This document shows positions 24,212 to 54,910 of a stretch of 64,000 nucleotides of DNA, piece by piece; the stretch's first letter is position 1, and every line of letters starts with the position of its first letter. Below the pieces are notes generated by a model. That model ran no database searches and was not told the origin of the DNA. It was given only the letters and a program-made list of their open reading frames with translations. A program made the translations under genes and the position numbers. Source of the stretch: Straminergon stramineum (Eukaryota; Streptophyta; Bryopsida; Hypnales; Calliergonaceae); assembly GCA_963920665.1 (NCBI GenBank), contig OY987270.1:14224019-14288018 (forward strand), read 5' to 3'.

Positions 24212-24213
24212 GG

Positions 24214-25551
24214 ATGGAGGGCGAACTACAATCCGAACTTGCTGTGCAAGTTCGAAAGGTGAATATGATTGAATCACAACGTCGATCATGTTATGAATTT
24301 TTACTAGCTCAAAGTAACAACGGAACCTTGAAGAAAGGATCATTTACCATTGCAGCACTTCGATTTGGCTTTAGCACTCGAACAATCAGCAGTGTTTGGG
24401 CAAGGGGTCAAGCATCCATATCAAACGGCAACGACTTTGTTGATGTCTCTTCTCGTATTCAAAGAAATTCGGGACGGAAGAGGAAGGAGATTGACATAGC
24501 CAATGTCAAAAATATTCCATTGAGGCAGTGCAAAAACATTCGATCTTTGGCATTTGCCATGAATGTGTCCAAGTCAACGCTGCATCGACGTATAAAAGAA
24601 GGAAAATTGTACCGCCATTCCAGTGCGTTGAAACCATTCCTCACTAAAGCAAATAAGAAGTCTCGGCTTCAATATGCGCTATCAATGATTGAACCATCAT
24701 CCCTCAATACGGAGTTGCCAATTTTTAAGGGATCATTTGATCGTGTTCATATTGATGAAAAATGGTTCTATCTCACTGAGGAAAGCGGGAGTTTCTATTT
24801 GGTGCCCGACGAAGAAGAGCCCCAACATAGTGGTAAAAGTAAGCGCTTTATTTTGAAGGTGATGTTCCTTGCAGCTGTTGCTCGTCCTCGCTTTGATTAC
24901 ATGAGGAATCAATTTTTCAATGGCAAAATTGGAATATATCCTCTTGTATTTCAAGAACCTGCCAATCGTTCTAGTAATAATCAACCAGTTGGTACAATGG
25001 AGACAAAGCCAATTGCAGCAATTACAAAGTAGATCACAAAACAAATTTTGATAGAGAAGGTGTTCCCAGACATCAGATTAGTTTGGCCAGGGAGCTCAGA
25101 ATCTGGACCAATTGAAGTCTTTGTTCAATAGGATAATGCAAAACCACATCCAAGTTTGGATGACCCAATTCTAATTGAAGAGGGCAATAAAGATGGATTC
25201 AAGATCCGTTTAGTGTGCCAACTACCGAATAGTCCAAATACAAATGTCTTGGACCTTGGAATTTTTCAAGCCATTCAATCACTGCAACATCAGAAGGCAC
25301 CTAATGTGATCGATGAGCTAGTCACTGCTGTTGTCACTTCATTCAATGAAATGGAGAAGGACAAACTCAATGACGTTTTCTTGTCGCTTCAAAACTGCCT
25401 CATTAGTGTTATGAAAGTTCACGGGGGCAACAACTACAAGCTTCCTCACATGGGAAAAGCAAGATTAGCAAAATTAGGTCGTCTTCCTGTAAATCTACAA
25501 TGTCCTACCGATGTACTACAAAGTGCCATTGACGCTATTAGTCACATGTAG
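24214..25551 (+). pseudogene. plant mariner-like (DD39D) transposase, two stops
   Basis: The transposase would bind the TIRs and cut and paste the element at TA sites. The frame opens at an ATG two bases after a TTGCAG acceptor. Two helix-turn-helix-like segments come first (about residues 40-65 and 107-130). The catalytic core follows: first Asp in HIDEKWFY (D181), the strongly conserved block LPDEEEP-like (here VPDEEEPQH), then KVMFLAAVARPRFD, second Asp in DNAKPH (D307), and third Asp in NVLDLG (D347), 39 residues between the last two as expected for plant mariners. Two in-frame TAG codons interrupt it, at 25030-25032 and at 25129-25131, directly before DNAKPH where family members usually have QQDNA. 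The usual NSPDLN is NSPNTN here. All three acidic residues survive, so it decayed recently or only by point changes. Confidence 0.92.
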
Positions 25552-28660: not shown

Positions 28661-28792
28661 ACTACTATGGAAATGTGTGGAAAAAAATTCAAAAACTTTG
28701 ACGATATGGATTGAAAGATTATAATGTTTGAAGTTAGGAATTTTTTTTTTCTACCTTGCCCGATTGGGCCAACAGCCTTTAACTCCTCCTAG

Positions 28793-29000
28793 CAACAACG
28801 CTAGCGTGTGAGCTCGGAGCGGTGAGCTTGCGAGCTGCGAGCGTGGAGCTTGTGAGCGGTGAGCCCCCAAACCCTATTGTTTAGAAATTTTTTCTCCAAA
28901 AATTTGTGTTTATATTTTTGTTGGGAAAAATTGAGGAAAACTTACTATTTATAGTAAATTTTGTGACCTATAATCGTGTCCCCTATGACCGTGGATTGTG
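28793..29000 (+). repeat. left terminal inverted repeat region of the MULE
   Basis: Begins with the GCTAGCGTGTGAGC motif, followed by repeats of GTGAGCTTGCGAGC type, then AT-rich sequence and CCCTATGACCGT near 28981. The partner region is 48540-48690. Identity is patchy, so the terminal repeat is old or highly diverged. Confidence 0.65.
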
Positions 29001-29962
29001 ATAAAGTTTTATACTTTATGGTTCATAATTTTCGGTGGCTATGCATTTAGACTTTCAAAATTTTGTGCATAATTAGAACAATTGATTTATTAACTAAAGT
29101 AGAGAACATGCCAACCACTTAATGTATAGTAAACTCATATTACGTTGGAGGTGAATTATAATTATTTTTTTACTGACTGTAATTCATACAAAGAACCGTG
29201 TCTTCTGAGTATCGCATATGGATACAAATTTCCAACATGCGCTACTATAAGTGGACATGTATAGGATGAGTTGCCACCCTAAAGGTTAGGGTGAGATGAT
29301 GACCACAAGCCATTGTGGATTTTGAATAGATATCTCACCCTAATCTTGAGGTGTTTTACTATATGTAATTTGCAAATCTAAAATTGATTTTTCATCGTGA
29401 TTGTAAGTACTACCAAATGTTGACATCTTCAAACATATACTAGAAAATGACAAGTTAAGGGGGAAAGCAACAAAATGGGAAAAGAATAAGACATTATATG
29501 AAGAAAAATATAGGGAAAGAAAAAGAAATGGGAAAGGAAAAAACTAGGAAAAAAAATGGGGAAAAAAAATGAGGAAACCAAAAAAATGGGGAAACCAAAA
29601 AGATGGGGAAGAAATAACAAAAAAGAAAGGAGAATAAAAAAAACTAGAGACACTACGGTAAATTAAGGGGATAACAATGGAATTCAAAAAACAATGAAAA
29701 AATTTATAAATGGGACAAATCTGGGAGAATACAAAAAGAATTTCTTTTGATATCATATATGCCTTACTGAAATAGGATATAGGGTTGTACATAAGTATAT
29801 TCATTTACATGAATTACCTTCAAAACAATTGACTAATCAAGTTTCCTTCCATATTCCTAGAATGTATTTATTAGAAAATTCAAGAAGCTTCAAATCAATT
29901 CAATCAAAATATATGTGAATGAATATAATATGAGTCAAGTACACGGATAAATGTAGCCATGC
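29001..29962. other. MULE left non-coding region with purine-rich tract
   Basis: No gene. 29455-29645 is an almost pure A/G tract on the plus strand with repeated 'atggggaa' and 'gaaaccaaaaa' motifs. It generates spurious Phe/Ser/Leu-rich frames on the minus strand. The end of the transposase gene lies just after, at 29963. Confidence 0.6.
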
Positions 29963-32900
29963 CTATTCTGAAACTATGATGATTCCCGCTCGAATTAGAA
30001 GTACCTTCAACTCATTGAAGCTATAACTTGGAGCATGAATGAATTTGTCGTCATGGATGTCCATTTTGCAGAAGTTCCGGTATAAGTAGTACAAGTGCTT
30101 GCAATTCACATACTGTTGTCGACCTCCAATGGCAGAAACAACCATATTTATGAAGTCTGGGCATGTGCATGTGGGAAACATTCCCATAGTAATGCGATAG
30201 ACATTTCTATTAGGATCTACTCCAGTTTCTAATGAAACTATTGCACCTAGGCCTGGAAAGGGGAGCATAGTTACTGCCAATATTTGTCTTTTGATGTTAC
30301 CTGCACTCTCCCACTTATTTCTTTGCTCAGTTGTTGGTACATTTGCAATTCGCCGTATAGTTCGGTTGTTTCGCACCGTTGGATACGCATCTGCATTTGC
30401 TGGAGGCGGGTAATCATACAAGACGCTCTTGAATACATTGGACATGTTAAAGAGTCGACATGGTGACAACGTTGGTCGCTCTTGGAGACAGAAGCCAGCG
30501 TGTTGCAACAATAATGTCTCCTCTCGACTGAGGTTCGTTCTAGTCAAAATAGGCCATACCTTTGGTACCTCGGGCCAATCTATTACCCACTTGCGCTTGG
30601 TTCCTTTCACGCATCGTTCTATATCATCTCCACAGAACCAGAAGTCTGCCACAACCCCTCGTTTACTTCCGTACTCTTCTTTTCTCCCGCGATAGGTTGG
30701 AGCTGGGGTTCCCTTCTTTCCCCTTGCAATTTTGGCAGTGCACTTCAGATTTGATCCCCGTTGCTGAGCAAAACACTTAGCATTTGATTTGTGGCTGATC
30801 CTTGCAATGTGCCACTTCGATGTATCACAATCGAGTTCAAATGCAATCGTAACATGATGAGAAGGGTCCACCTCGGGCTGCTTTCCCTTATCTTTGGAGG
30901 ACTCAATTGAAGCCATTGTAGACCTTGTTCGAACACGTGGTTGAGAGAAATTTACTTTGTCCGGTCTATGTGAGTCCCCAGCATCGCCAATAGGTACATC
31001 CAACTTTCTCTTACAACTTCCAAAGATTTCTTCTCCTTCCAAATGTAGCATGCGAGTTCCAACACCTTCTGCTCCAGGTAATGTATTCATTGCCTTTGCT
31101 ATCTTCTTAGGATCTTCGCTTCGTCTCGCAGCTCTCAACTTCAACTCCCCCTTTGATGGACCAGATCCTGAGGCATGTCCTCTCAAGTAAGCACGATAGT
31201 TTGTCATTTGCATCCATGCACAAATACTATCATCGCAAGTAGCGTCAAACAAGTTATTTCTTTGGTTTCCGGACATTTGAAGCCACTTGTTATGAATTGT
31301 TTTTGACAAGTTGCACGAAGGTAAGTCCATCATTTCCTCCAAAGTCAAACCCTGGAAATCCATCCATAGAAATATCACTTTAGAAATTCAATTTCATACA
31401 TTACAACCATCAACATTTTTTACTCAAACTTTGTCCATATGGATTTCACATGAATGGAGGGATCTTTCAATACAATAAAATGCACATTTTGTAGCGTCCT
31501 AATGGTCCTATGCAAACTAACATTGGAATAATTAGGCAAGTTTACTTTGATGGTGACAGGAGCGTATATTCCATTCGCATACTTATATTTCTCTTAAAAT
31601 TTTTTTATTAAAACTTTTCCTTTCCAAAACCTTAAATGGGGGTATTTCAAGGTAGTACAAAAACAACCGTCGGATCTGACGGATGTTTCCATGCTACCTT
31701 CCAGTACACACATTTTAGGTTAAAATGTATGATCCCCCCAAAAGATTAAAAGTCAGGGGTATTTCAAAATCTGTATTTAAATCACACATGCTTACTTGAA
31801 ACCAAATATTATCACATATCTCTCACATCTAACAGTATTGCCATAAAAATATAGGAGAATAAATTACAAAACACGGTGCACTTACCATGTCCATGCAAGC
31901 TCCCCATTGACGGTACCTAAAATGCCAAAATGCAAGCCAATGGTCCAAGTGATGAAGTGCATCTTCAATAGTAGCTCCAGATGATAACCACCATGAATGA
32001 ATTGCAAGGTAACGTGTCTCCGCCTCATCCATATTATTTGATTCTTTGTATTGTTTGCATAGTCGAATGTGTTGTTGTTGGAATGCTTCCTTGATATGCT
32101 TCTGTGTGTGTTTGTGAAGAGAAGTACTCCAGTGCAATAAGCATGTCCTCTCACGATCCTCCATTTTGTCATTAGATGAACCACTACCATAGACAATACG
32201 AACCGCATTCCAATTGGCCATAGCGCTATCTGCCATGAATCCCTTGAAGTTCGTATGTTCGACTCCATGTCTTGCCATGACTGCATTCAACGACCTCCAA
32301 AACTGCACTTGGACCTTAGTATCTTCAAATTGCATGTCGCATGTAGAAATAGTCATGACCTTCTTGTACCCAGAATCATACACGTGGCAAGCCATTGTGG
32401 TCCATTCCTTCACGCGCTTAACGTGGTCAAACATCATCCACGCATTTTGAAGATCACCTCCGGATTGCATGCGCCTCACCAAGTCCATTCCATTTCCCGG
32501 TCCCTCGGTGAGCATCTTGAAAATGTACACCTTCTCTTTGCCTTGGCCAGGAAAGACACTATCATGTATGAATTCAAACTTTGACTCTTTCTTCATAGTC
32601 ATAATGTTGTCGATCACGCCTCCTCGGTTGTTCGAATGAAATGAAGAAATAACATTTCGTATGTTGGGACTACTCAAATATTGGAAGCGATCCATAACCT
32701 CTTCCATTTCCTCCTCCTTCAACATCTCCTTCTCTCCCTCTCCGTTATGAAATAGATAGCGTGTAAGGAAGTCCTTGCTAGTAGAGAGAGCAATTGCAGA
32801 GTTCATGGCTGTTGGTGTCTTGGCCACTTGCTCTGCTATGAGACCGCAAATCTGGATTGTAGAATCTCTATACATGCCCATTGCAACAGGGTGAACATGA

Positions 32901-34045
32901 TTTCCTAGATGGATTGCGGCCCTTGTCAATTTGGGATTCTCACTATAGGAGTAGTACATCCTAGCATCGCAAGTGTCCAGACATGTAGGTGATATCTTGC
33001 AAACTTTGCAAACTAGAGTACAATCTTTGGGAGGATTGACCCCTATTGCAAAAGGAAAGGTTGTGTACCTGGTCCATTCAGTTTCATTGCATTTCGAAGC
33101 CCTCTTCAGGTAATCACAGTCTGAATTTCCGCAAACAAGGTGACCAACACAATATGACTTATGAAACTTCAGGCTGTCAGAGTTGTGAATGTTTGTCGTC
33201 ACCAACTTGCACCAAAGGTGTCCATCATATCGCCTATCCATTCCTTCTAAGTTCCTCGCTGATGACGAAGACAAAGAGGAGCGACGTGGAGGCAATTCGA
33301 AGATGACATCCCCATTGAAGACAAGTGGAAGAAAGTTCACACGATGGTGCTCCATATTGTTCAAATTTAGAGTTGATAATTCATTCCTAAAGCGGTGCAT
33401 AGTACCTAGTCTCCTCAAACAATCCATTATGCTCATGGCGTCAACTCTATTGGGATGCAACGGAGGACGAGACAATAGAGATTGGGCTAGACTACTCGAT
33501 GGGGTGCTCACCCCTAAGTTCAATGAAACCTTCTCCACTGATGTGGACTGCACACAACGTATTTGCTTCTCAAGCATTGAGTCAGAGAATTCTCCTTCCG
33601 ATTCGCTAGACAACTCTATGACAGGATCTACTTTCTCAATTTTCACTGCTTGGAGAACTACAGTATTAGGAAGGACCGAAAACACTTTACGAGGTGGAGT
33701 ATATGATATACTGTGAGTGATATACGGCATATCCACAATGGATGTATCTGAATGACGACTTAAGATCTTAGTTGACGCAGCTAGCATAGATAGAGGAAGT
33801 CCGAAAGCTCTATAATTTCCACATGAAAGGTACTAGCACTGTTCATCTTCTTCCATAGACCTAACAATAGGGACTAACTGTTGCACTCCTCCTAATTCTG
33901 ACTGCTTCTCTTCTTCGACATAGATAGAGGATTCTACCAATCCAAAGCGGACATGAAGTAGATGTTTTAGTACTCTAGCACGTCCTCCCTCATCTATAGG
34001 AAACACTAGTGGAATGTCATGACCATCGACACGAATACAAGCCAT
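29963..34045 (-). pseudogene. MULE transposase: GCM1-like finger, DDE core, SWIM
   Basis: The transposase would mobilise the MULE. Exon 2 of the main frame (31351-29963) joins exon 1 (ending 31886) through a GTAAGT donor and a TTTCCAG acceptor, both phase 0. Numbering from the ATG at 33787: SUMO-interacting-type VIELSSESEGE at 56-66; a WRKY-GCM1-like zinc finger at about 183-302 (DGHLW, HKSYCVGHLVC, CxxC pairs, then HLGNHVHPV); a MULE-type core with candidate Asp at 454 (MMFDHV) and 520 (GFMADSA), and a CLLHW motif at 549-553. The C-terminal exon ends with a SWIM finger, C-T-C, 19 residues, C-K-H. The same frame extends upstream to an ATG at 34045 (MACIRVDG) but a TAG at 33833-33835 interrupts it. 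If translation starts at 33787 the protein is ~1,096 residues and uninterrupted. A further 5' exon (34266-34131) is possible, but its splice phase did not fit. Confidence 0.78.
31649..31700. repeat. hairpin with GATC-containing palindromic core (1)
   Basis: Arms on 'aaggtag' and 'ctacctt' surround CCGTCGGATCTGACGG. It lies in the transposase intron. Most diverged core of the five except that GATC is kept. Confidence 0.55.
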
Positions 34046-34266
34046 AGTACTGATAGTAGGAAGAAAAGCGCTCAGAGAATGATTGAAATGAAAGAAGTTC
34101 GTCCTTGGTCGAGGTTGCATACCATTGCATCTTCATTAAGTACTTTACACTCCACAATCCCTCTGCCGTCTAGGAAGCAATTAGCAATAAAGGAATAGGT
34201 AGTTCCACAATTACTCTCCATTAACATGGTAGTTGCCAAGCCGCCTTCAAAACAAACTTTTATCAC

Positions 34267-34790
34267 TACTATTTAGGAAAGCATTAAGCTTAGGGAGGCG
34301 GCTATGTCAGGGAAATTCCAAGTGCATGCACATGACATACGTAGGTACTATTTAATACAAGTTAGCACACCTTCTTTAATTAGATACCAGAAGTGACAGA
34401 GCCGTCACCGTCAGAGAAGTAGATATAAGTACATTGGTACAAGATCTTTACAATTGGCGATGCATTGAAGAACTTGTCAGTCCTTAGGGCTCAAAATTTG
34501 AAAATAGGGGCGTTTATCATCAATCCATTCAAGGATGTACATGTCTAACCTATTTGGTGACGGCTTCTTTAGCGCATATAAGTACTCTCTACTTCTCCAA
34601 ACCGCTGTGTGTTTCAAGTTGTGCAAGATGGAGAGTACACTCATTCTATAGCGATAGTTTAGTTCTCCTTTTCTCTCACTTCATGCTCTTAGACAATCAT
34701 AGTTTTTCAGCTGTTCCGGGGCAAACTAAGAAGCGTAAGAGGCAGATCTCTCTATATTTCTCATCTAGTAAGGTACTTAGAAGATCTAGG
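34267..34790. promoter_or_regulatory. divergent promoter region between two MULE genes
   Basis: This ~0.5-kb stretch separates the transposase gene (minus) from the SIM-tailed gene (plus), so it should contain both start regions. I see no clear TATA box or conserved motif. An open frame runs into it from 34791 upstream to 34554, so the downstream start could be earlier than chosen. Confidence 0.4.
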
Positions 34791-37700
34791 ATGACTCGTG
34801 GAAAGAAAGTTGTATCAAAGACTAGTCAAGCAATACCCGGAAACCTTCGGAAGGTCCTTTCTTTTGGAGGAGGTATGGGCGAAGAAGAGACTACTAGAGT
34901 GCAAACCAATGATTTAGCAGATGCAATGACACAAGATACAAGTGCTACACCAAATGTTGTAGGAAGAGATGGAGTCCCAAACGTAAGAATCTTTTGATCC
35001 CGTATGTCTACTTTGAATTAGTTGGCAATTAATGGAGTTTTACTGTGTAGGATTTAGGATGTCCAACATGCGATTTTGTTTTCATTCTACACATTCAGGC
35101 ATATACTGTATTTGTACTTTACAGATATGTTCATTGACATTCGAGTTCTATGAACAACATACAAAGAATAGGTTAGAAACTCTTAGGGTCAGATACATGC
35201 AAATATGTCATTTCTAGGGGGTGGAAGACTGTTTGTCCACAACGTACTATCAAGGTCTTAGTGTACAACAGTCCTAAATATATCCCTCTTTAAGCACTTT
35301 TACTGGTGAGTTATGCATTTCAAGTATGTCATACTTAGGAATGAGAACTCCATTCTGAGATTGCGTTGTTATTCTAGTTATCCAGACATTGAAAATACTC
35401 ATATGACAAATTAATCAAGTTATAGCTATGTATAGACTCATCCCATTTCATCCTAATTGGAAGTATTCCAATTGTATTTACTATGTTATTTAGGAAATAC
35501 TTCAACTGTCACGACCCTCATCACAAGGCATGCCCGTGCCACCTTGGTGAGCAAGAGGGACATTGGGGGTGACTCCCCAAGCCTTGCAAGAGATGAGGTG
35601 AGGGGGACTAGGAGTCCCGAGCGATCAGAGCGATGTAGCGCTCTGATCCGGACGAATTTGGGGGCGTGTGATACATGTTTGGAAAGGTCTTGAGAAGACG
35701 CTTCTAACCGTCCAAAGAACGCGTGATTTGGACTTGCGAGTCAAAAGTTATGGGCGTTCAAAGTTGGCAGTGTCCCGGTCGCGCCGGGAGTGCCCTGGCC
35801 GCACCGGGAGTGTCCCGGCCGCGGCGGGAGTGTCCCGAATCTTTGGAGGGCAATATCTTTGCGATTACTTGTCCGAATGGAGCAAGTGAGTAGTCCATCG
35901 GCATCTACGCGTCGCGTAGATGTCGAAAATGGGGTCGCATGTGCGATTTGGATACCGGACCGCAAAGTTATGCCAGGTGGAAGTTCGGGAGTCCCAAAGT
36001 AGTGCGAATCGGGAGAAATGGGTGGTCTTCCAAGATGGGATGCATCTTGGGGGTTCCCGGTGACCTCTAGTATGGGGGGGGGCTGCCGAATCCCGCAGAG
36101 AGTACTATGAGGAGGGGTGGTCTCCCTCCTCACTCCCGGATGGTGCCATGGTGAGCCTAAGTGGCCCTGGGTGGTGAGGCTAGTGTTGGAGCCTCACCAT
36201 CACTTGTGTGTTACCATGGAGTGCTTGTGCACTCCTTGATACCGGTTGGGTGGTGTCCCACTCCACACTAGGCCATGGTGTGAGTCCCGTTTGATGAGTC
36301 CCGATTAGTGAGTCCCGAAATGAGTTGGGTTGGGCCTAGTGGGGAGTTGGGTCCCATTCAAGGGCAATTAGCACCGGTGGGAGTAGTGCCTCACCGAGTG
36401 CTTGGACATCAATGGAAGTTCCGCCCCATGTCATCAAATGACATGCCCGGTGTCTTGTGGGAGTTAAGGATTGGAAGGAAAGGATTGGGAGTCACAGAGG
36501 AATGGGGAACCTCGTGACTTGAGTTGGAACCTAACATTGTGGATGCGTGGCATGTGCAGTGTTAGGAGAGCGTGAACCTTGGTGGCACTAAGGTATTAAG
36601 TGTTTGGAAAGTGAGCTTAAGGTGGTAAGTGTCACTAAGGGGCGCGACATCAACCCTAAACCACAGAAATTAGAAAAGTGCTTGAAATTGTCCATTTCCT
36701 TCTAGAATCTTTTAAATTAATTCAACAAATATCATGCTATAATTAATATAAGTTCTGGGCAAAAGTGGAAAGGATTCGTTAGGAAAATGTTATAAAGTAG
36801 AAAATTCTTGACGAAGAAATTTAATGAAACTCTAAACCCTTGTAACAAAAGATTTTGTGCATGTGACTTGTGACTACTCATAAGCAGGGTTAGTTGAATG
36901 AATACTTCTTTAGCCTAATTTGAGGGTTAACATGTATATTATTTAATAAATGATTCACTATTGCCAATCCTATACTATTCTGGTGAACTTCGAATTCTTA
37001 ATGCACTCTTAGACACCTTCCATCTCAGTAGCGAAGTCTACACTTTATTTTGTGATATAGTAGTAATGTCTAATTCTATAGCAAAGCTATAAACACTTCC
37101 AAAAATTAAAGTGGAACTTCAATAATATTCACTGCATACAGTTCTTACCAACAATACGTAAGATATCCAAATTCAAATTTACATCCTTTTCATTCTGAAA
37201 TGGCAGAGGATGTGAAAATTTAAGTGAGTCAATAGATTCCAAGAATAAACCAGTGATATGGAAGAGTCTGTGGGCATGAAAGACAAGTATATAGAACTTT
37301 TGAAATCAGATGAGAGCCACGCAATTAGAAGTATATTTTGGCTACTTAGCAAGATGTGGGAGCTCATCAACACTAAAACTAGATCCTGAGGCCACTAACA
37401 ACAGTTGCAAAGTAACTCTTTGGTATCCTATGAAATTTCAAATTCCAACCTTCAAGATTGTGGCCTCTCAAAAATAGCTAGAGTATTTTATTCCATCTTG
37501 CAAAGCAATTGAAATAAGCTAAAGAAGGAACTACAACAAAAACGGCACAAGGCACTTATGATCTGAGCTTTAACCCAGAAATAAAAAATCTTGGGCAATG
37601 AGCAGTTCAGGGGCGTCGCAGGAAGAGGGTACCTGAAGTCAACCATTGCCACTCTTATCGGAACATGGCAGAACCTACCGAGCAAAGGTTCCGAGCGGCC

Positions 37701-40700
37701 CTACCTCATCGGAAAGCAAAGTTTGCTGCAAATCAAAAGCAGCTTCTTAATCCTCTCCCAATCGATTTGTAGACCCTAGAAGTAACTGAAATCCTTCGCA
37801 AAATTCTCTTGATCTCGTTAGTGCTCATCTCACTTGTACCTCACTTGTTTTCAGGAAGAAGTTGGAGTCACGATGAAGAAGACCACGAGAAGCAAAGGTC
37901 GTGCTGATGGGAGGCTGCCACGCGTTGCACAAGTCGAAGAAGAGCAACCTGTTCGTCAACAACAACAGGAGGTTTGATTTCTTCCCCATTCCGTGTCGTC
38001 TTTCTCTGTGAAGTCACTGGATTTGTATGTGTTCAGAGCGATAAGGTTTCGAAAAAACCTGCGACACTTTGTCTCTGTATCGGCGTGTCTATATCGGCAG
38101 GGAGAGGTTCGAAGTCTCTAAACCCAACTAAATCTATAAGATTAGAAATACCAAACATGAGGGGAGTGTGCATTGGTGGCGCTGCTGACCTCTAGTTGAA
38201 CTTCTTGCTTGGCTCATCTATGAGCTGAAGGGCATAGCTCCTGTATCGGAATTTCAATATCGTGAGCAAGAGTAGCGGTTTTCTTTGCGACCATCAGAAT
38301 TTGGAAGATTCCAAGTACCATACTTGGGGAGTGTGCGTTTGAGTTTTCCTTGACCTCCTGTTCAAGTTGTCCCTCAGATCAGGCTAGGTAGCTGAAGCGT
38401 ACAGATCCTGTTCAAATTCCAAATTTGAGTATGTGAGGGAGAGCAGCGTTTTACTTTGCAAATATAAAAATTTGAGAGAATCCAAGTAATATACCTCGGG
38501 GAGTGTGTGTTCGAGGCGTCATTGCCCTCCAGTCTAGTTGCTCCCTACGTTGAAGCTGTGTTGTTGAAGCTGTGTTGTTGAAGCTCAGGTTCCAGTCACA
38601 TTTTCAAATTTCAGTAACATGAAGGAGAGCGGCGGTTTAAGCTTTCCACTATAAGTTCACAGTTGAAATTCGAGGGATTCCAAATTTCGATGCAGAAAGG
38701 CGAGTGTGTGTTTGAGTTTTCCTTGACCTCCTCAGCAATTTGCCCCTAGGATCAGGCTGGGCTGCTCAAGCGCACAGGTCCTGTTCAAATTCCAAATTTC
38801 AGTATGTGAGGGACTGCGGTGTTTTGCTTTGCGACCACAAAAAATTTAGATGATTCCGAATACCATACCTGGGGGAGTGTGCGTTTGAAGTTTTCTTGAC
38901 CTCCTATGCAATTTGGCCCTAGGATCACGCATCGCAGCTGCAGCGTATAGCTCTTGTTAAAATTCCAAATTTTAGTATGACAAGGAGTGCAACGTGTAAA
39001 CCGCAAACTAGAAAATTTGAGAGAATCCAAGCACCATACCTGTGGGAGTGTGCGCGTGAGAAGACATTGCCCTCTTCTCTAGTTGCTCACAACGTTCCGG
39101 TTGTGATGCTGGATCTGAAATTCCAGTGAAATTTCCAAATTTCTGTAACGTGAAGGACAACGTTTAGGGTTGCTTTAAACTGAAGTTTTCAGAGATTAGA
39201 AATTTGTTGCTCAAAGGCAAGTGTGCACTTGAGGGTTACCTTGATCTATTCAGCAATTCGTCCCTGGGATCAGGCTGGGCTGCTGAAGCGCTCAGGCGCA
39301 CAGGTCCTGTTCAAATTCCAAATTTCAGTATGTGAGGGACTACGGTGTTTTGCTTTGCGACCAGAAATTTTGTGAAGATTCCGAATACCAAACCTGTTGG
39401 AGTGTGCGTTTGAGGTTTAAGTGATCTCCTCAGCAATTTATCCCTAGGATCAAGCTATCCCAAGCTACGTTGCTGCAGCGTGTAGCTCCTATTAAATTCC
39501 AAATTTTAGTATGACAGGGAGTGCAGCGTTTTGCTTCACAAACTAGAAAATTTAAGCGAATCCAAGCACCATACCTGTGGGAGTGTGCGTGTGAGGAGAC
39601 ATTGCCCTCCTCTCTAGTTGCTCACAGCGTTCAGGTTGTGATGCTGGATCTGAAATTCCAATGAAATTTCCAAATTTCAGTAACGTGAAGGACAACGTTT
39701 AGGGTTACTTTTAAATGAAGTTTTCAAAGATTAGAAATTTGATGCTGAAAGGCGAGTGTGCGTTTGAGGGTTACCTTGACCTCCTCAGCAATTCATCCTT
39801 GGGATCAAGCTGCGCAGGTGATGCGCACAGGTCCTGTTCAAATTCCAAATTTCAATACGTGAGGGAGAGTGCTGTTTTGCTTTGCGACCAGAAATTGTTT
39901 GAAGATTCCGAATACCAAACCTGGTGAAGTGTGCGTTTAAGGTTTTCGTGACCTCCTCAACAATTTGTCCCTGGGATCAAGCTACGCTACTGCAGCGTAT
40001 AGCTCTTATTCAAATTCCAAATTTTAGAATGAGAGGGAGGGTAGTGTTTTGCTTCGCAAACTAGCAAATTTAAGAGAATCCAAGTACCATACCTCTGGGA
40101 GTTTGCGCGTGAGGACACATTGCCCTTTGTCAAGTTGCTCCCTATGCTCAAGTTGTAATGTTGAAGCTCAATTTCTAGTCAAGTTTTCAAATTTCAGTAA
40201 TGTGAAGGACAGTGGTTAGGGTTGCTTTCAACTATAATTGTTTGAAGGTTTCCTTGACCTCTTGTGCAATTTGTCCCTGGAATGAAGCTGCGCAGCTAGA
40301 GCGTGTAGCTCCTGCTAAAATTCTAAATTTCAGTATGAGAGGGAGGGCATCATTTTGCTTGAGGAACTCGAAAACCTGGTGGAGTGTGCGGTGGTGGCAG
40401 GGGGCTTAGCCCGTAGAGTCATAGACAACCCTCACGGTCCGCTCCATCGCACAGATCTTGGCGCACCTGAAGCACTCGACACACTCTCCCGAGACCGATA
40501 ATGTGGGTACTTCCAACTACCCACCGAACCACCGTCGGATCCGACGGTACTTTGAGGGGTACCCTGGACTACCCACATAATCGGTTTCTTGACTGAACCC
40601 TAATGGAAATTCTAGGGACCTTGAGCCTAATTTTCTTAACTTCCAGGGTCATTTCAAGGCATCCATTTGTGTTGTGTTCAGTGTTACACTCTCGGCTTTT

Positions 40701-42869
40701 CGCTCATTGATTTATATAGCCCTACATGCTCTTCCTAATGTGTCGATTTTAATTACCTTACCTGTGAGCGACTGTGCGGTGGTGGCAGAGAGCTTAGCTC
40801 CTATGCAACCCTCACGGTCCGCTCCATTGCACCTGTGGAGCTTGGCGCACCTGAAGCCATAAACGTGCTTCTGCATCAGCTTGACGTCCTCTCCCGCGAC
40901 CGATTATGTGGGTAGTGGAGGGTACCCCTAAAACCACCGTCGGATCCGACGGTATTTTGAGGGGTACCCTCCACTACCCACATAATCAGTCTCCTTAGAA
41001 AACCGTAATGGAAATTCTAAGGATTACGAACCTGATTTTCTTAATTTTCAGGGTCATTTCAAGGTAGCCAATTGTGTTGTCTGTGGCGTTATACTACCGG
41101 CCTTTCATTCTTTCATTTATGCAACCCTGCATGCGCTTCCTAATGTATCACTAAAAATCATGAATAGATTGGTGGAGCCCTCAGGCAGTAGTTGTTCAAA
41201 CGAAATTTGGGAGGCATTATTTGAAAAGGCAATTGGCGTGGAAACAATCTTCCTTATATACGTGATTCCAGTTGAAAACCTGAATGAATCCGTGATTGTC
41301 ATTAGAAAATGACCGTTTTGGGGGGTAGTGGGAGCTATCTCCAAAACCACTGTCGGATCCGATGGTGGTTTTAGAGGTAGCTCCCACTACCCCCAAAAAC
41401 GGTTTTTCTCTTCTAAGAGTATTGACGAAAATCTCTAGATGTCTCATTCCAACCATGTATTCTGGGGATGCCTTCATCCATTGCAATGAAATTGTAATTT
41501 GTTAGATCTTGGGCATAAATTCAGTATCAAAGGATAGGATTTGAAAACGTGGTTATTTAAGTTTTTTTGCATCGATCCTCGACACTCGCAACAAGAATAC
41601 TTAGAAATGTTTTTGACCCTTGTTGTTCAAATAGTTCATGTGACATAGTCTAGAATCATTTTGGGTTACAATACTATGTTTTAGGAAATTAACTTGGAAT
41701 CTATCAGATCATTGAATTTGAGAGCTAGTCAAAGCTACTAAGAAAACTAGCACTACTCTTTGTCTTTTTAGGAGAGGGAATTAATGTATACCTTGGATCA
41801 TATAATTTTAAGTGATTCATACTTGAAGGACATCAAAATATTGTGACTAGTAGCTTAGTGAAGTTTGTATTGGAGTTTTGGAAAATGATTGGGATATTGA
41901 GGCTTTTTTCATGTTGGACTAATTAACTAGAAGATGACGTCACTATAAACCCTCATTGATATTCATATTAAAGGTACCCTAAGATTGGCATGGTAATTTA
42001 GTTGTGCAATAAGTGAGTGATCTCAATTAAATTTGTTGTAGAATTTTGAATTTGATGCGGAGAACAACAACTGTTGGGGGCATTGTAGGTACATGAAATG
42101 ACTAATGTTTCATGGTCATGACAAGATTACTTGAATTGGAATGACTTATACATGTGTTTAAGAGTTTAAGCCCTTGTAGCATGACTTAGAGATTTTGGGA
42201 GCTTGAACTATACTTTGTTTTTCATGTATCTACTACAAGTCATCTATATATGTTTAAGATTATTTGTTTTGAAAAAGTAATTTTATTGGCATGTAATATT
42301 TAGTTCCTCTATATTCACTCATGCTCATTGTATTGAGACACAAATATTTCAAGTTCAACCTTTACTATAATCCATGTCATTCACACATGATATTTGAATT
42401 GCTTACATATTAGTTCTTACATGTGTAGATTGTGACAACCAATGAGCATTTTGGGCAAGCTTCATCATCAACCGTGCCAAGTGTGATGGCGGAGGTTCAA
42501 CATGTTGCAAATGAAATGGTGCCATTGACTCCCATGCCCAAAAATGACAACTTGACCCTAAACTTGCCAGTGGAGGAGAAAGACCTGGTAAGCTTCAACG
42601 ACATTATGGACGCTTGTGACCGTGCTGCTGATAATTATGAGCAGCCACAGCTCAGTTACTATAGTGGTCAACGAAAAAGAACAAAAAATATGTTCTCACA
42701 GGAGAGATCTAGTTCAAAGTACAATTCTAAATGCCATTCTTCAGTGTCCGTTTCTAGCCCTCAGGTTCAAGAGTATTGTGATTGTGCATGTAGTGCACAA
42801 TTAAACAAGCACGAAGTGGTTATCATTCATCTCAGTTCAGACTCAGATGAAAGTGTAGATATTGATTGA
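34791..42869 (+). CDS. three-exon accessory gene, SIM-tailed basic protein
   Basis: Function unknown. Proposed exons: A 34791-34982 (starts MTRGKKVVSK, donor GTAAGA), B 37855-37971 (acceptor TTTTCAG; encodes KKTTRSKGRADGR, donor GTTTGA), C 42429-42869 (acceptor GTGTAG, ends TGA). All junctions are phase 0 and the joined frame has no stop, about 250 residues. The N-terminal half is basic with AT-hook-like RGKK and RSKGR patches and a Gln run. Exon C encodes a basic GQRKRTKN stretch, a CDCACS cluster and a C-terminal VVIIHLSSDSDES, a good match to SUMO-interacting motifs (hydrophobic core plus acidic Ser tract). The introns hold a solo LTR and satellite arrays. It is transcribed toward the methyltransferase-like gene 200 bp downstream, and exon C could belong to that transcript instead. 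The exon joins are inference. Confidence 0.48.
35507..36649 (+). mobile_element. solo LTR, TCAAC duplication
   Basis: Starts TGTCACGACCC and ends CGCGACA, flanked by perfect 5-bp repeats TCAAC (35502-35506, 36650-36654). It shares long stretches with the second LTR at 59463-60774, e.g. 'tgggggtgac..cccaagccttgca', 'cttctaacc.tccaaagaac' and 'aatctttggagggc'. No internal gag-pol, primer-binding site or second LTR is nearby. It is GC-rich compared with the MULE around it. Confidence 0.85.
35771..35837 (+). repeat. 20-bp tandem repeat in the LTR
   Basis: Three units of TGTCCCGGnCGCnCCGGGAG type plus a partial fourth. The second LTR (59463-60774) has only a degraded trace ('tctcggtggcgccaag'). 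Confidence 0.85.
36655..38169. other. intron-like AT-rich sequence
   Basis: Apart from the proposed exon B at 37855-37971, no gene is supported. Sequence after 37590 becomes GC-richer. Confidence 0.4.
38170..40385. repeat. satellite-like array, ~180-bp units in trimers
   Basis: Landmarks such as 'gattccgaatacca' plus 'gagtgtgcgtttgag', 'agaatccaagcaccatacct', and 'aggcgagtgtgcg' recur about every 180 bp. The same type returns every third unit: 'gaatccaag' type at about 38469, 39018, 39556, 40077 and 'gattccgaatacc' type at about 38852, 39378, 39905. So ~180-bp monomers form a ~530-545-bp higher-order unit, with about four rounds. It lies between proposed exons B and C. Confidence 0.8.
40494..40585. 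repeat. hairpin with palindromic core (2)
   Basis: Arms 'accgataatgtgggta' and 'tacccacataatcggt' enclose the core ACCGTCGGATCCGACGGT. Confidence 0.75.
40902..40987. repeat. hairpin with palindromic core (3)
   Basis: Nearly perfect 86-bp palindrome: arms 'gattatgtgggtagtggag' and the exact complement around ACCGTCGGATCCGACGGT. The best preserved of the five. Confidence 0.85.
41312..41403. repeat. hairpin with palindromic core (4)
   Basis: Arms 'ggtagtgggagctatctcc' and its near-complement around ACTGTCGGATCCGATGGT. Arm sequence differs from hairpins 2 and 3 but still pairs with its own partner. Confidence 0.8.
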
Positions 42870-43068
42870 ATTTTAATGAAAACTCTACTTTAGTAGAGTT
42901 TGAACTTTCACTTCAACGATTGTGCCATCTATGTATGTCATGTTTAGTAGAGTTTTTTTGTCATTGTAGTGAAATGAATGATTGTAACTAAAGAATATGC
43001 ATTGCTTATTTTATTCACATTTTATATTGAAGTTTCAATAAATTTGAAGGTTCTGTTTGTGTTTGAAG

Positions 43069-46000
43069 ATGGAGGAGTCATCTATTCCTTGTACACAAGA
43101 AAAGGAGCCTACACATACACCGGGTACTGACGAGACAATGCAACCTGACATTGGTGGGGAAGAAGATGAAAACTTTGAGATAGAGGACATTGACGATGGT
43201 GAGGAGGAGAAGGAGTTATTGGAAGATGAGCTCCATCGATTGCAAAAGGTTGACTCTGTGGCAACCATTGCAAGTTTGAGGATGAAGCCTGAAAAATATT
43301 CACGACTGAATATTCCACTCTGTAGATTGGTAGCAATGCCAATGGTCAGACCTACTCTTTCTTCTGACGTCAACAAATTGGAGAGGGAGTTCGCTATTGG
43401 ATATCGTGAAGGAGCAGCGGTCTTCTATGTTTCCACAACAAATGAGTCTGGGGAGAGTTTTACATTCACCGAAGAGGAGATAAACACATGGGATCCATTG
43501 TGGAAGGAAAAAAACGACAACTTCAATGCCTATGTCAATTTGGTGCCGGAATTGAAGTTCATGAGGAACTTGAAGTTTTTTGTGTGCGACGGAAATCACC
43601 GGCTTCAAGCGTGGATGAATCACATTGGAAGGCTATACATGTCACACCCAAAATGGTACATAGTAGTTGACTGCATCATTTTGGAAACAAAAGGGAAAAT
43701 TGAATTGGTCATGCAAATGATGCATGACATCAACAAGTGAGTGATAGTGAAGGCTTTGATTTCTACTTTACGTTTTATTTTTCCTCCCCTTAATTTTTAA
43801 GATTTAATTTTAATCAAGCATCTTTGGTACTAACTCATATTCTTCAAAACATTTTAGATCTACGGAGGACTCTCATGTGAAGACCAACTTGGTGCACACT
43901 CTTTACCACATGCAAAAGTATGGGCTTCTTCCATTGGAGCAATTTATTGACATGTTAAGGCCCTCAGAGAAGAAACGTTGTGTTGTACAGTCTGGGAGAA
44001 AGCATTGGTATTCAATGCCGATTGAAGTGTTCACAGCTTTTGTTTTTCGGGTGAGAATTTTTGTTGTTTAAACTTAATTTATCTTTATTGTTTCAAATGT
44101 TCCTGGTGCCTACATAATTCGTTTATAGAGGTTCAGGTAATTTAAATGTTGTTGGAGTTTTGCAGCAAGAGATAGCACAAGCAGCTGATGGTGCCGTACG
44201 TGTCTACACTGAGGTGACACCTTTTGATGAAAAGAGCGATCAAGGGCTTGCAAATGCAATGAGAGTTGGAGCAAAAGACAGGGCTACAAAGTTGATTGCA
44301 AAAATGGGGAAGTTGTTGGCAGTGGCAAATCCTATACATGGTCCGACTTTTCTTCAAGAGGTACATTACATTTTTTAATTATATTTTGTTTTTCGCCTTT
44401 GATGTTCATTGGCCTTAAAAATTTATAATAACTAAAAAAAATACTTTGCATTGCATTTTGTAGATTGAAAAGCATTGGACCACTAATGAGGTACTGGAGA
44501 TGACCCTTGAAAAACTACAACTCATTGCCACATGCAATACATCAGCCTTGCAGAAGACGAAGTTTTTGAAATGGTGGAACTCCTCCATGCCTTCCCGAGA
44601 TGCTAGGCGGTTTCCACCCAAGCCTGTTTCTGAAGAAAAGTTGTTGCCCTTCCTCAACAAGTGCGTTTGGTGGGCAGGGGTGAGTATTTTCTAAATTCAT
44701 GAATCATATGTAAAGTATGTGTGATTTTTGTAATCTATTGTCACAATACATGCTTTCTATTGCCTTCCAAACAATGTAGAAGTGAATTATTGAGGTCTTT
44801 TTGCAAATTGAGGAAGCTGCTGTGGAGTACTTTGACAATGTGATAAAGAAAGACAACATCAACATTAACATGGCCGCCCCGCTTGAGCCGGAGACTCTAC
44901 CAGAGTACATTGAAGGGTGGAGGAGGAAGATTTGGGAGCAAGGTTTTGGCCCTGTTCTCAAAGGAGCCAATGCTTTCAAAAAATCTAATTACTTTATGAG
45001 CTATGATGGATCAGACCTAGCAGTGAAAAGGGTTATTTTTCGGTGAGTATTTGATTTATTTTAATTTGCTTCATTTTTAGAGATGAATTGCATGTAAAAT
45101 GAGCCCTACAGAACTTGTAAAACATCACTCTTACAATTCATCAAAGCATAGAGTACTTTTCAAATTTTCTACCTTAAACTGAAAGTTGGGGTAACGTAAG
45201 GAACTCCAAAAAGAACTGTCGGATTCGACGGCTCTCTTGGAGGTACTTCTCCCTACCACAACTATTGGTTATACCATCAATTTCAAAATTGATTAACATG
45301 TGGTGATCATGATTGTTTGGAGTCATTCTACAATGACACTTCTCATTGTTAGAAGGTCCTTTATGAATGTTCACTTTCGTAGCATTACATCTTCATTTGA
45401 TATAATTTGAAATGCAGATTTATTTATATTGCACTTTCTAATTTAAGACTTTCTTGTTCTTTTGTAATTGGGAGTTACTTCAAGCATGAGTTTCTAGCAA
45501 AGAATGCTATTGCTCGGGAGGATCTTCCTCCATTCTTGTCCATTTGGTTGGACCGGAGTGCGTCAGAGTGCATGTACACTCCAAGTCAGCTTCAAACATT
45601 TACCACAACCCATTTGACTAGTGGTGGGTGGTACTTGGATTGTCCACAAACATTCACTCATCCGTCGGAGGCAGAGTTTAGAAAGTCCTTTGATGGACTT
45701 GGAGTTATTGATTTGGATGTACCAGAGTTTGCTGACCTCACGGACACTCAGAAAAAGAGGGCCATTGCAAGGAGGATTGTTGCTGACAAGAAGAAAGAGG
45801 GCAAGGAATAAGAAGTTCGGGCAAACAAGGAAAAGAAAGAAGCAGAGCGTTTGGCAAAGTTGGCGGAGAAGGAGGCGGAGAAGGAGGGGAAGGGCAAGGG
45901 GAAGGGCAAGAAGAAGGTTGAAGCCGTGGACCACGTTCCAGTGACTTCTACGATGGATCAAAGTTCTCAAATGCAAATCGAAACTCAGAGTGGTTTGAAG

Positions 46001-47677
46001 AGGAAGGCGGTTCTTGCAGAGTTCACGGAAGATATTGTCACTCAAGGTACCCAAGTAATAGTCCTTGACGACAGTGAGGAGGTGAATTCAGAGGAATTGA
46101 TCCTCAACATCTCCATTGTGGATGTTATGGACAATGAGAAAATCGATGGACCAAATTATTATACAAAGGTTGTGGACTTCCTTAACAAGGTAAAAAGATT
46201 TTGTTCATAATACTCAAATTGATTATACTATGAAATAACATGAATATTTTCTTTCTGAAGTATTTATTATTTGAAATACAATTTGTTTGCAGATGTCGAC
46301 TGGGAAGGCTCGTGTGTATGACAATAAAGTCACCCATCATCCATCAGTGGACCTCATTCTCTTTGACTATCAAGAAAATCTACCTGTACCAGGGGTGTCT
46401 TTTCCGGCAACTCACGTGCCTACATGGAACTCAAACATAGAGTATGAGGCCATAGCAATGGCATTTTTTTTTGCAGAGAAGCATTTGCAAGACCATGGTT
46501 GCATAGTTATTTTTCATTCGTGGAGCACTGATGCGAAGGGCGTCATTGCCAGATTATGTGAGTCGTACCCCACATTTGTGAAGAAGGAGTGGATGGGTAT
46601 GAATCGTGTACACTTGACCTCGGCTTTGGACAAGACCACTATGGTAAATTTTTTTGCACTTATTCACAATTTATTGGGCATTTGACATTGTCTATTTCTG
46701 TTCATTTATATCTAATGTGTATATGGTTCCCATTCTTACAGACTTTAAAATTTGGCATCACCCTCTTGGTGAAAGACCTTGGCAAGAGAGGAAAATCAAA
46801 TTTCACTTTCAAGCGGTCACCATCAATGCTAAAGGCAAAAGTGGACATTAGACGAGACGAAATTTTGATCAACTACACCACAAAAGAGACCATGTTGATG
46901 AATGAGGCAACATCATTGCCGTGGCGAGGGGCTCGAGAGAAAGATGCAAGATTTTACCAATTCATCATTGAGGGGACAACTGAAGAAGGGGATTTGGTTC
47001 TAGATTGTACAGCATCTACAGGTATGTTTTGAATCCAAGAATCATGAGATTAAATTCAAATATGTATTATAAAATCATTCAAGTAATAAATTGTTTGTTA
47101 TTCATCACAGGTGCTTCTATTATGGCATGTCGTGGGATGGAGCGCCACATCGTGGCTTTGGAGGAGGATGAAGAAATTTTTGAAGCCCTTCTTTTGCCCA
47201 TGCAAAAGCCAACTCCTATTGTGGTGGCAGTTGAAGTCAATGATCCACCAACTACGATTCCGAAATCACAAGATCCAGATGCCATGAACGTGGTACCTCG
47301 GAAGTTTATTCGGAGGGATAGACCTAGTAAGTAAGTTTAAAGATTTGTGAAAGCTTTGTGTGTATGGTATTTCTAATCTCTAATGAATCTAACAATTAAT
47401 CATTTTTGTTTGCAGTGCCAAGGGGTTGATGTCAACAGATGCAGTGATGAAGAAGTGAAGACTTCTCTTGAGTCCAGAGAAGTCATTTGATCTTCCGGTG
47501 TATGCCAAGAAAATGGCATCGGCATTTGCGGAGTTCAGTTGCTCTAAACCTAAACCCCGTAAACAAACATATGCTTTCAACGTTCTGGAGTTCATAGATG
47601 AATCGGCATCCGAGGGTAGAGAGACATCAGATTCCTCTATCAATGAGGATTCTGCGACAGAGTCCAGTGCGCCCTAA
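43069..47677 (+). pseudogene. ParB-like + adenine-methyltransferase-like gene, decayed
   Basis: Proposed exons: 43069-43736, 43858-44050, 44166-44360, 44464-44679, 44780 (or 44795)-45042, 45418-46189, 46293-46643, 46742-47021, 47111-47330, 47416-47677. Every junction has GT..AG and matching phase. The first exon encodes an acidic region (residues 29-56) and a ParB/sulfiredoxin-like domain (about 80-205, key motif DGNHRLQAW at 174-182). A Lys/Glu/Gly-rich linker and a SUMO-interacting-type VIVLDDSEE follow near 46060. The end resembles a beta-order amino-methyltransferase: DLILFDYQ in the motif IV place (46350), then VLDCTASTG as motif I with ALEED after it (46995-47170). DPPY is replaced by FDYQ and DPFxGxG by DCTASTG, so methylation activity is doubtful. 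In-frame stops: TAA 45809-45811; TGA 47456-47458; TGA 44783-44785 if the first acceptor is used. Confidence 0.72.
45184..45272. repeat. hairpin with palindromic core (5), diverged
   Basis: Core ACTGTCGGATTCGACGGC (GATC lost), arms 'gttggggta..' and '..taccacaac' with partial pairing. Located in an intron of the methyltransferase-like gene. Confidence 0.6.
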
Positions 47678-47839
47678 ACTTATGAGATTGACGTATCTCA
47701 TGAGTCAAACTATTATGTGTTCATTTTCATTATGATTGGATTTGTGTGTTTTATGGCTACATCTTGGATAGTTGGATGGATGATATTTATTTCTCTTTCC
47801 ATTCTTCTATTGCTTGAGATTCCTTTAATTGTATGGAAA

Positions 47840-48440
47840 TCAAAGTGTCCCAACTTAAAAAATATAGGGTGTACCCTAAACCCTATACTATAACCCAACC
47901 AAAGTGTCTTCATAAAAATAATAGGGTGTGGAGAATAGTATGTTCACACCAACCAAACTGTCTATCCAAAAAAATAGGGTGTGAAAATGAAAAATAAGTT
48001 CACACCCATAGAAGTGTCTTTTAAATATTATAAGATGTTAAAAAGAAAGGTCCACACTAATGAAATTGTTTTAACAAAAAAAAATAGGGTGTGAAAAAGA
48101 AATTCATGCAAAGTAAAAAGCCCAGGTGTTGGAATCCTTGCATACCAAAAAACATTAACACACCAAAGTGCCTTATCCAAAAAAATAGGGTGTAAAAAAA
48201 AAAATCACACTACCTAAAGTTTCTTCATAAAAATAATAGGGTGTCAAAAATAGTATATTCACACAACCCAAAATATCTAAATCTTCAAAAAAATTGGATG
48301 TGAAACAAAAAAATATATTCACACCACCAAAAGTGTCTTACCCAAAAAATAGGGTGTAAAAAGGAGAAATTGATTCACACCCACCAAAACCTTAACTAAA
48401 AAAATTGAGTGTCTTATTGTAAATAAAAAGGTGTGAAATA
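47840..48440. repeat. subterminal tandem repeats, ~55 bp, AGGGTGT core
   Basis: 'aaaaatagggtgt' followed by an A-rich stretch and 'cacaccnaccaaagtgtctt' recurs about ten times (near 47864, 47917, 47970, 48080, 48183, 48233, 48290, 48345, 48402), spacing mostly 50-60 bp. It sits directly inside the right end of the MULE. I saw no matching array at the left end. Confidence 0.75.
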
Positions 48441-48539
48441 TGTAGCATGTGGAGGGGGGCTATAAAATATATAAAATGTGACTCTAACAAATTCAAATGT
48501 TGGTACATATTTTTTTTAATATGTAAGTCACTTAAAATT

Positions 48540-48690
48540 TGGACAAAATTAACTAATGTTTCCCAAAATTTAAAATTTTGTACACCAACGGTCATAGGTC
48601 CATCACCCTTTTTTTCTTCAAATTTTTTCCTGCTCACAGGCTCATAGGCTCACAAGCTCACACTCTCAGGCTCGCATGCTAGCAACCCTG
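48540..48690 (-). repeat. right terminal inverted repeat region of the MULE
   Basis: In reverse complement: GTTGCTAGCATGCGAGCC, then GTGAGCTTGTGAGC repeats, then CCTATGACCGTTGG, in the same order as the left end. The 10-bp duplication follows at 48691-48700. Confidence 0.65.
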
Positions 48691-48700
48691 CTCCTCCTAG

Positions 48701-53919: not shown

Positions 53920-54723
53920 CTACACTAAATGTTCCCTGACAACTCGTTTGTAAAAGTCATTCTCTTTCGGGATAGACGAGCACAGCTCACAAGACAGATT
54001 CACAAATCCTCTACCCGATCTATCGACCCTGCTACAAGACGTATGCCTAAACGTACCATTCACTTTTACAAATTTACCGTTTCTCATGAATGTCGCCGTC
54101 AAATGAGGTTCGGCATACCAGACAGCGCCAACGTGAGGGTCATTGAACAACGGAGTCACCGAATAAGACACACCACCGTAAATCCAATTCGGACCTCTAA
54201 AACCCAAACACAAAGAACCCAGCAAGTCATTCATGCGAGCTGAACACTCACCTTCATGAGGGGAACCGCTGAGGTCGACTGCAGAATCCCGAGCAGCCTC
54301 CACGCGATCAGCACCCTCCCCACGACCAGATGACTCCACTGCCCACCATCTGCCGAGATTGGGCTGATTCGAATGCACGCTGGCCGCCGAGGACAAGGCA
54401 GGCCGACCTCGTCTTCCGCTGAGGAGAGCGCAGCACCGTCGTGAACACACTAGCAGAAAACACACCCGCACAAACAAACACACCCGCACAAACGAACAAC
54501 ACCCGCACTCCGTGACGCCGCTGACCTGAACACACCACCACAATTGATCGCGCACAAACAAGCAAGCTAAAACAATCCCGAACACCATCCTCCACGCTGC
54601 TGAACCTTGCACACCCCAGCAGAACTGATCGCGCACCCCGCAAAAGCAAACCCCGCACCAGACAGAACTGATCGCGCACCCCGCAAAAGCAAAACCCCGC
54701 ACCAGGAATCGGTGATCGCGCAC
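53920..54723 (-). CDS. captured gene fragment inside the Pack-MULE
   Basis: Not recognised. The frame is 267 codons, but only the C-terminal ~110 look protein-like: NWIYGGVSYSVTP, then DPHVGAVWYAEPHLTATFM, Cys residues in FRHTSC and LSCELC, and SIPKENDFYKRVVRE at the end. Just before it, AAG followed by GTGAGTG near 54252 and TTTTAG near 54198 could bound a ~55-bp intron whose removal keeps the frame. The N-terminal half is built of minisatellite units (FAGCAI, CGVRDQF repeats) and is probably not original coding sequence. High GC contrasts with everything around it, consistent with capture of host exons. It might equally be part of an accessory gene of an autonomous MULE. Confidence 0.4.
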   Translation of the reverse strand: MRDHRFLVRGFAFAGCAISSVWCGVCFCGVRDQFCWGVQGSAAWRMVFGIVLACLFVRDQLWWCVQVSGVTECGCCSFVRVCLFVRVCFLLVCSRRCCALLSGRRGRPALSSAASVHSNQPNLGRWWAVESSGRGEGADRVEAARDSAVDLSGSPHEGECSARMNDLLGSLCLGFRGPNWIYGGVSYSVTPLFNDPHVGAVWYAEPHLTATFMRNGKFVKVNGTFRHTSCSRVDRSGRGFVNLSCELCSSIPKENDFYKRVVREHLV

Positions 54724-54800
54724 CCCGCAAAATCAAACCCCGCGCCAGGAATCGGTGATCGCGCACCCCTCAAAAGCAAACCCCGCACCAGGAATCGGGA
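54626..54800. repeat. 43-44-bp minisatellite in the Pack-MULE
   Basis: Four copies of a unit starting 'tgatcgcgcacccc' at 54626, 54669, 54713 and 54756. Confidence 0.85.
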
Positions 54801-54840
54801 ACACCTTTGTCACGCCGCTGACCCCAAAACAGAATTCCAC

Positions 54841-54910
54841 AACTGATTGCGCACAAACAACTGGTCGCGCACAAACAACTGATCGGGCACAAACAACTGA
54901 TCGCGCACCC
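54841..54910. repeat. 18-bp minisatellite in the Pack-MULE
   Basis: Four units of AACTGATCGCGCACAAAC with single-base variants. Confidence 0.9.

Follow-up and report, generated by a model that had tools for sequence, protein, structure and literature searches.

Our analysis of a 64-kb stretch of DNA (64,000 nucleotides of contig OY987270.1; hereafter the window) shows that positions 28793-48690 are a DNA transposon of the Mutator-like element (MULE) type, 19.9 kb long and lightly decayed. Between its ends lie a transposase gene on the minus strand and, on the plus strand, a gene of ten exons (gene B) whose product combines a ParB/Srx-like domain with a methyltransferase-like domain, as well as a less clearly outlined gene (gene A). 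In our interpretation, to which we assign a probability of about 0.47, just short of even, the element was once autonomous and carried at least one and probably two accessory genes of its own; the product of gene B would recognize the element's own DNA and act, through a link to SUMO, in anti-silencing, in the steering of transposition, or in both.

The limits of the element are given by the following features:

28783-28792: left target-site duplication CTCCTCCTAG, exact direct repeat
28793-28835, plus strand: left terminal inverted repeat, imperfect; CA-N5-GCTAGC, then a GAGC array to about 28865
48648-48690, minus strand: right terminal inverted repeat, imperfect, in the same register; GAGC array from about 48631
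48691-48700: right target-site duplication CTCCTCCTAG, exact direct repeat

A preliminary description of this DNA had reported exact 10-bp direct repeats and inverted termini, and both are confirmed here. The two copies of the duplication are identical at 10 of 10 positions, they are its only occurrences in the window, and their length falls within the 8-11 bp of MULE target-site duplications. Random flank pairs with a common 10-mer within 18 bp arose 7 times in 20,000 draws, a total from which the skipped pairs less than 5 kb apart were not subtracted. Inward of both duplications, seven bases are followed by GCTAGC and then by RTGYGAGC; since these motifs are equally distant from the two duplications, the ends stand in the same register. 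They are identical at 28 of the 43 outermost bases and at 28 of the 50 outermost bases, a level (at least 28/50) reached by 5 of 200,000 random end pairs, and their gapped local score of 40 compares with a maximum of 32 among 300 shuffles; because the repeat is of low complexity, the control frequencies for ends and flanks should not be taken as exact probabilities. GAGC is richest in the 100-bp stretches starting at 28801, 28751 and 48601 (the top three of 1,278 overlapping stretches), that is, at the two ends. All three genes lie inside these in-register ends and their duplications in a compact layout, with about 1.2 kb from the left end to the transposase stop, 0.2 kb from the gene A stop to the gene B start, and 1.0 kb from the gene B stop to the right end.

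Two further marks of MULEs, an RNase H fold related to IS256 and a WRKY-GCM1-like zinc finger, are found in the transposase, whose gene comprises the following parts:

31886-34045, minus strand: transposase exon 1, with the WRKY/GCM-like zinc finger and the IS256-like RNase H domain
33596-33646, minus strand: SUMO-attachment consensus VKIE, then the SUMO-interacting motif (SIM) VIELSSESE, in a disordered linker
29963-31351, minus strand: transposase exon 2, with a SWIM-type C-x-C...C-x-H motif and the same layout in the relative L006

The exons (34045-31886 and 31351-29963) are joined by a GT-AG intron, and the gene contains one premature stop, at 33833-33835. It has 126 homologues at E<=0.01, and the fold of its product resembles that of ISCth4, with weaker matches to GCM and WRKY. 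The GCM1/SWIM MULE transposase proposed earlier is supported, the SWIM part as a putative zinc finger whose spacing was seen by eye in the window transposase and in L006 and which has no match in Pfam. As for a third acidic catalytic residue, no glutamate past the C-x2-H motif is conserved at 90% or more. Searches of viral_contigs yielded no relatives, and the search of genome_contigs with the transposase yielded one contig, L006 (CADCWO010000080.1), with the split frames of a spliced gene. This contig is filed in an assembly named as a Synechococcales cyanobacterium, yet its MULE-type transposase is divided between two frames, as in the spliced gene described here; the contig is probably eukaryotic contamination.

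Gene B (43069-47677, plus strand) consists of ten in-phase GT-AG exons with 1,120 codons and three premature stops, and its product contains, in order, the ParB/Srx-like domain, a linker, a SIM and an N6/N4-type methyltransferase-like domain:

43069-43736, plus strand: exon 1; acidic N-terminus, ParB/Srx-like domain and FFVCDGNHR box (DGNHR from 43588)
43858-44050, plus strand: exon 2; the relative P0168 continues from exon 1 into it
44166-44360, plus strand: exon 3
44464-44679, plus strand: exon 4
44780-45042, plus strand: exon 5; premature stop at 44783-44785
45475-46189, plus strand: exon 6; charged linker, SIM VIVLDDSEE (46055-46081), premature stop at 45809-45811
46293-46643, plus strand: exon 7; altered motif IV (DYQENLPVPG, from 46365) within the first half of the methyltransferase-like domain
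46742-47021, plus strand: exon 8; further part of the methyltransferase-like domain, with the beginning of motif I (from 46997)
47111-47330, plus strand: exon 9; rest of motif I (VLDCTASTGAS)
47416-47677, plus strand: exon 10; C-terminal tail with the stop codon, and a premature stop (47456-47458)

The ParB/Srx-like domain carries a box of the D-G-x-H-R type, which we take to be the mark of the ParB/Srx superfamily, at a helix start between strands. The residues C, D, G, N, H and R of this box are conserved at 63 to 66 of 66, and the predicted fold (predicted local distance difference test score, pLDDT, 63.5) places a helix at residues 176-192 after the box and strands at 199-205 and 212-218. 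Among the weak fold matches are SerK, SbnI, sulfiredoxin and Noc, with scores near background. Searches of the domain by sequence in Pfam, PHROG, the PDB and phages gave no useful match, and matches to KMP11 and TCTP were judged to be chance.

The second domain is recognized more directly. Exons 7-9 match the PF01555 profile at 25.0 bits (E 2.1e-5), below the curated cut-off of 26.7, and PHROG methyltransferases down to 1.3e-6, in both cases at the motif I end only; DpnA in the PDB is matched at 0.0018. Phage matches amount to 431 records at E<=10, 43 of them with one place covering at least 80%, and the best (E 5e-5) spans 87% of the domain. BLASTP against five phage enzymes taken from these 431 matches gave values of 5e-9 to 8e-11, which refer to a database of those five sequences, and revealed the beta-class motif order; a profile comparison of exon 7 alone with the same five was not significant (probability 2.3%, P 0.021), with the register as in BLASTP. 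A ParB/methyltransferase-like gene inside the MULE ends, as the preliminary description had it, is supported by the ten-exon gene B.

Motifs IV and I of this domain depart from those of the phage enzymes. Motif IV, which reads DLPYG or DLPFG in all five phage enzymes, follows neither the (D/N/S)PPY/W nor the DLPY form in gene B, where the window has DYQENLPVPG, three relatives (P0122, P0160 and P0178) have DCQENLPVPG, and a fourth (P0161) has DCQENLPMPG. Since motif IV is changed in all five copies seen, the change extends beyond the decay of this copy, and the replacement is itself conserved, with D, Q, E, N, L, P, P and G shared by 5/5 sequences. The SAM-binding motif I, seen in the window copy only, reads VLDCTASTGAS, compared with VLDNTMGSGTT and similar in phages, and has lost the first glycine of G-x-G. 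Because the catalytic motif is replaced in every copy seen, binding without methylation appears likelier than methylation as the role of gene B. The DNA- or chromatin-modification module proposed earlier is corrected in this respect, as its methyltransferase-like domain probably does not methylate in the ordinary way.

Relatives of gene B were found at E<=0.01 in 231 cases; this count comes from the joined query and includes relatives of exon 7, and several copies per genome do not follow from it. Among the 120 relatives listed, 116 match the ParB-like exon, and 115 of the 120 contain a [DN]GN[HR] box. On long contigs, the relatives of this exon form groups of 9, 6 and 2; members of one group are 76-95% alike and members of different groups about 50-60%, a pattern that fits a dispersed family better than one conserved host locus; a single-copy host gene is accordingly not favoured. 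No relatives of the ParB-like exon were found in genome_contigs, and the full-length gene B query matched no protein at E<=0.001 among 7,990 candidates, as expected if the database consists of single exons. The contigs longer than 10 kb comprise 17 with the ParB-like exon and 74 with the transposase, and one contig size (96,476) is common to both (P0130 and P0083). A search for exact inverted ends of 11 bp, flanked by a duplication of 8-11 bp and enclosing gene B alone, found none; on these grounds a separate element nested around gene B with exact ends was rejected. From the shared ends, the compact layout, this absence of exact nested ends, and a parallel in Ectocarpus described below, we infer that gene B is part of the transposon lineage and belongs to the element in its other copies as well.

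The structure of gene A is less firm:

34791-34982, plus strand: weak candidate first exon (MTRGKKVV...), an open frame with a GT donor only
37855-37971, plus strand: weak candidate middle exon (EEVGVTMKKTTRSK...), an open frame between AG and GT only
38223 to 40374 or 40383: diverged tandem repeat array, with copy spacings such as 172, 373 and 535 nt
42429-42869, plus strand: last exon, a clear open frame with the SIM VVIIHLSSDSDE from 42816 and an acidic tail

The exons before the last are conjectural, and gene A is only weakly supported as a multi-exon gene. Of the two plus-strand multi-exon genes described previously, gene B therefore holds, whereas for gene A the last exon alone is plain. 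The SIM VVIIHLSSDSDE at the end of this exon, together with the acidic C-terminal tail, does bear out the SIM-tailed gene of that description. This diverged, higher-order array would lie in a large intron of gene A; all eight copies of AGTGTGCG that the window contains (38330 to 40383) fall within the array or immediately next to it.

SIM-like motifs are thus present in the products of all three genes. VKxE is the SUMO-attachment consensus, and in the transposase it precedes the SIM within a linker (residues 19-128 of the open frame) that is predicted to be disordered (pLDDT <50); transposase E66 is conserved in 49/50. The SUMO-attachment pattern [VIL]KxE was found in 49/58 aligned transposases (shuffle mean 7.1, maximum 19) and the SIM pattern (e.g. 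VITLLSDSSD) in 41/58 (shuffle mean 16.0, maximum 26); these counts cover the first 260 residues of the 58 longer of 121 sequences against 200 composition shuffles, are not independent because the sequences are related, score fragments without the linker as misses, and include a few SIM matches that fall outside the linker.

Other repeats and remnants were observed in the window:

24166-25548, plus strand: transposase remnant (HIDEKWFYL...) in two open frames, presumably mariner-like (assigned by eye from its motifs)
31628-31720, 40493-40585, 40898-40990, 41311-41403 and 45177-45269: five copies of a palindromic repeat resembling a miniature inverted-repeat transposable element (MITE)
35834-36009 (inside the MULE) and 59934-60109 (outside): a 176-nt repeat, 75% alike, possibly a nested element
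54612-55260: tandem arrays rich in GC, with repeat units of about 43 and about 91 nt

The centre of the MITE-like repeat, CCGTCGGATCCGACGG, occurs five times in the window with at most 3 mismatches (0.02 expected), always inside the MULE, with one copy of the repeat in the transposase intron and another in an intron of gene B. Scans of the window with Rfam at gathering scores and for tRNAs found nothing.

It is important to consider these results alongside published systems. The closest is Sola1-1_Ec32 of Ectocarpus, a 21.5-kb transposon with a ParB-methyltransferase accessory protein of 1,104 aa that has been proposed to methylate the element's own DNA at N4-cytosine or N6-adenine; similar proteins are described in green and red algal transposons (PMC12477816). 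Gene B resembles these algal proteins by description, that is, in its domains, size and strand: ParB-like and N4/N6-type methyltransferase domains occur in one protein (1,120 codons here), and the accessory gene lies opposite the transposase strand of a giant DNA transposon. Since accessory proteins of this kind have been reported in algal transposons, the kind is not new. New here, and different from Sola1-1_Ec32, are the setting in a MULE and probably in a land plant, the motif IV altered relative to the phage enzymes, and the SUMO motifs; a SIM and probably a second plus-strand gene also distinguish our element. Retrotransposons of Symbiodinium and Klebsormidium likewise bear a DNA methyltransferase domain (PMC5890265), which is a C5-cytosine enzyme with demonstrated activity, in contrast to the motif-less, amino-methyltransferase-like domain of this DNA transposon; fungal DNA transposons with TET/JBP proteins also encode a DNA-modification protein, there a dioxygenase (PMC12730594); and the bdelloid rotifer N4CMT is likewise a bacterial-type amino-methyltransferase in a eukaryote but is reported to make an epigenetic mark (PMC8885841). 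In titles and abstract openings of the open-licence literature, no ParB-methyltransferase protein of a MULE or a land plant was named under the terms used.

Among the VANDAL elements, the KIU group shares with our element a link to SUMO biology, there through ULP1, which is a SUMO protease, and here through attachment and binding motifs. The ULP1 domain occurs in some VANDALs (PMC13317346), and VANDAL MULEs also resemble our element in having three genes and repeat arrays in non-coding DNA (PMC5735166, PMC13317346, PMC6446971), although they lack terminal inverted repeats and our element has ends of that type. Their VANC proteins bring about a loss of methylation, and the motifs to which they bind often lie in tandem repeats, also within introns (PMC5735166). 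Gene B could work in a comparable manner, as a functional parallel to VANC. With its ParB/Srx-like and methyltransferase-like domains, its product would recognize the DNA of the element itself, possibly at the GAGC arrays of the ends or at the repeats within the putative intron of gene A, without ordinary methyl transfer. Its SIM may contact the SUMO-bearing transposase or SUMO-bearing host silencing proteins, and the three proteins would then assemble on the element into a complex linked by SUMO, leaving the element open to transcription, steering its transposition, or both. We regard as speculative, with the odds clearly against it, the more specific proposal that in a plant MULE lineage a bacterial-type ParB-methyltransferase has turned into a non-catalytic, sequence-specific reader of DNA or a reader of methylation. 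By SUMO-attachment and SUMO-interacting motifs it would be wired to the transposase and gene A and into the SUMO-dependent silencing of the host, so that plants would have, next to VANC, another anti-silencing system of independent origin.

Several observations weigh against an element with accessory genes of its own. Strict linkage would predict more than one contig in common between the ParB-like exon and the transposase, although every cluster is represented by a single contig. Four premature stops in total occur in the transposase and gene B, in keeping with the degenerate copy described earlier. A plain dead wreck is nevertheless not favoured, since departures from 90%-conserved columns are few (2/71 positions in the ParB exon of gene B and 4/140 in the transposase). 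Genes A and B might instead be passengers, or members of a host gene family, that came to stand between the two ends of this copy by capture or nesting. The acquisition of gene fragments by MULEs is common (PMC6446971), repeats and MITE-like inserts do lie inside the element, only 1 of the 17 long ParB contigs has a size common to a transposase contig, and the ParB relatives could be one gene per species. We still consider this reading rather unlikely, given the compact three-gene layout, the SIM-like motifs in all three products, the tight grouping of relatives on 9, 6 and 2 distinct contigs, the lack of exact 11-bp nested ends enclosing gene B (only exact ends having been sought), and the parallel of the Ectocarpus Sola-1 element, where this pair of genes likewise occupies opposite strands.

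The remaining alternatives concern the activity of gene B. It could be an active N4-cytosine/N6-adenine methyltransferase that marks its own element, with DCQENLPVPG as an unusual working variant; the retained beta-class order, the alignment of phage enzymes across the whole domain, the invariance of the substitute motif and the identical proposal for the Ectocarpus protein (PMC12477816) speak for this, but the absence of a D-P-P-Y/D-L-P-Y motif from all five copies seen and the lost glycine of motif I in the window make it unlikely. A still more doubtful proposal is that the ParB/Srx-like domain acts enzymatically in transposition, as a nucleotidase, a kinase or a nuclease-like protein, with the methyltransferase-like domain as its DNA clamp. 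Of its weak fold matches, among them SerK, SbnI, sulfiredoxin and Noc, several use ATP or CTP, but the scores of these matches lie near background.

If an autonomous MULE with its own ParB-methyltransferase accessory gene is the correct reading, accessory proteins of the algal type would extend into MULEs and probably into land plants, and it would be shown that the enzyme part of such a protein can stay conserved after loss of its catalytic motif. The conserved SUMO site and SIM of the transposase would then offer a concrete, testable route from a transposon to the SUMO-linked silencing of its host, beside the ULP1 of some VANDALs.

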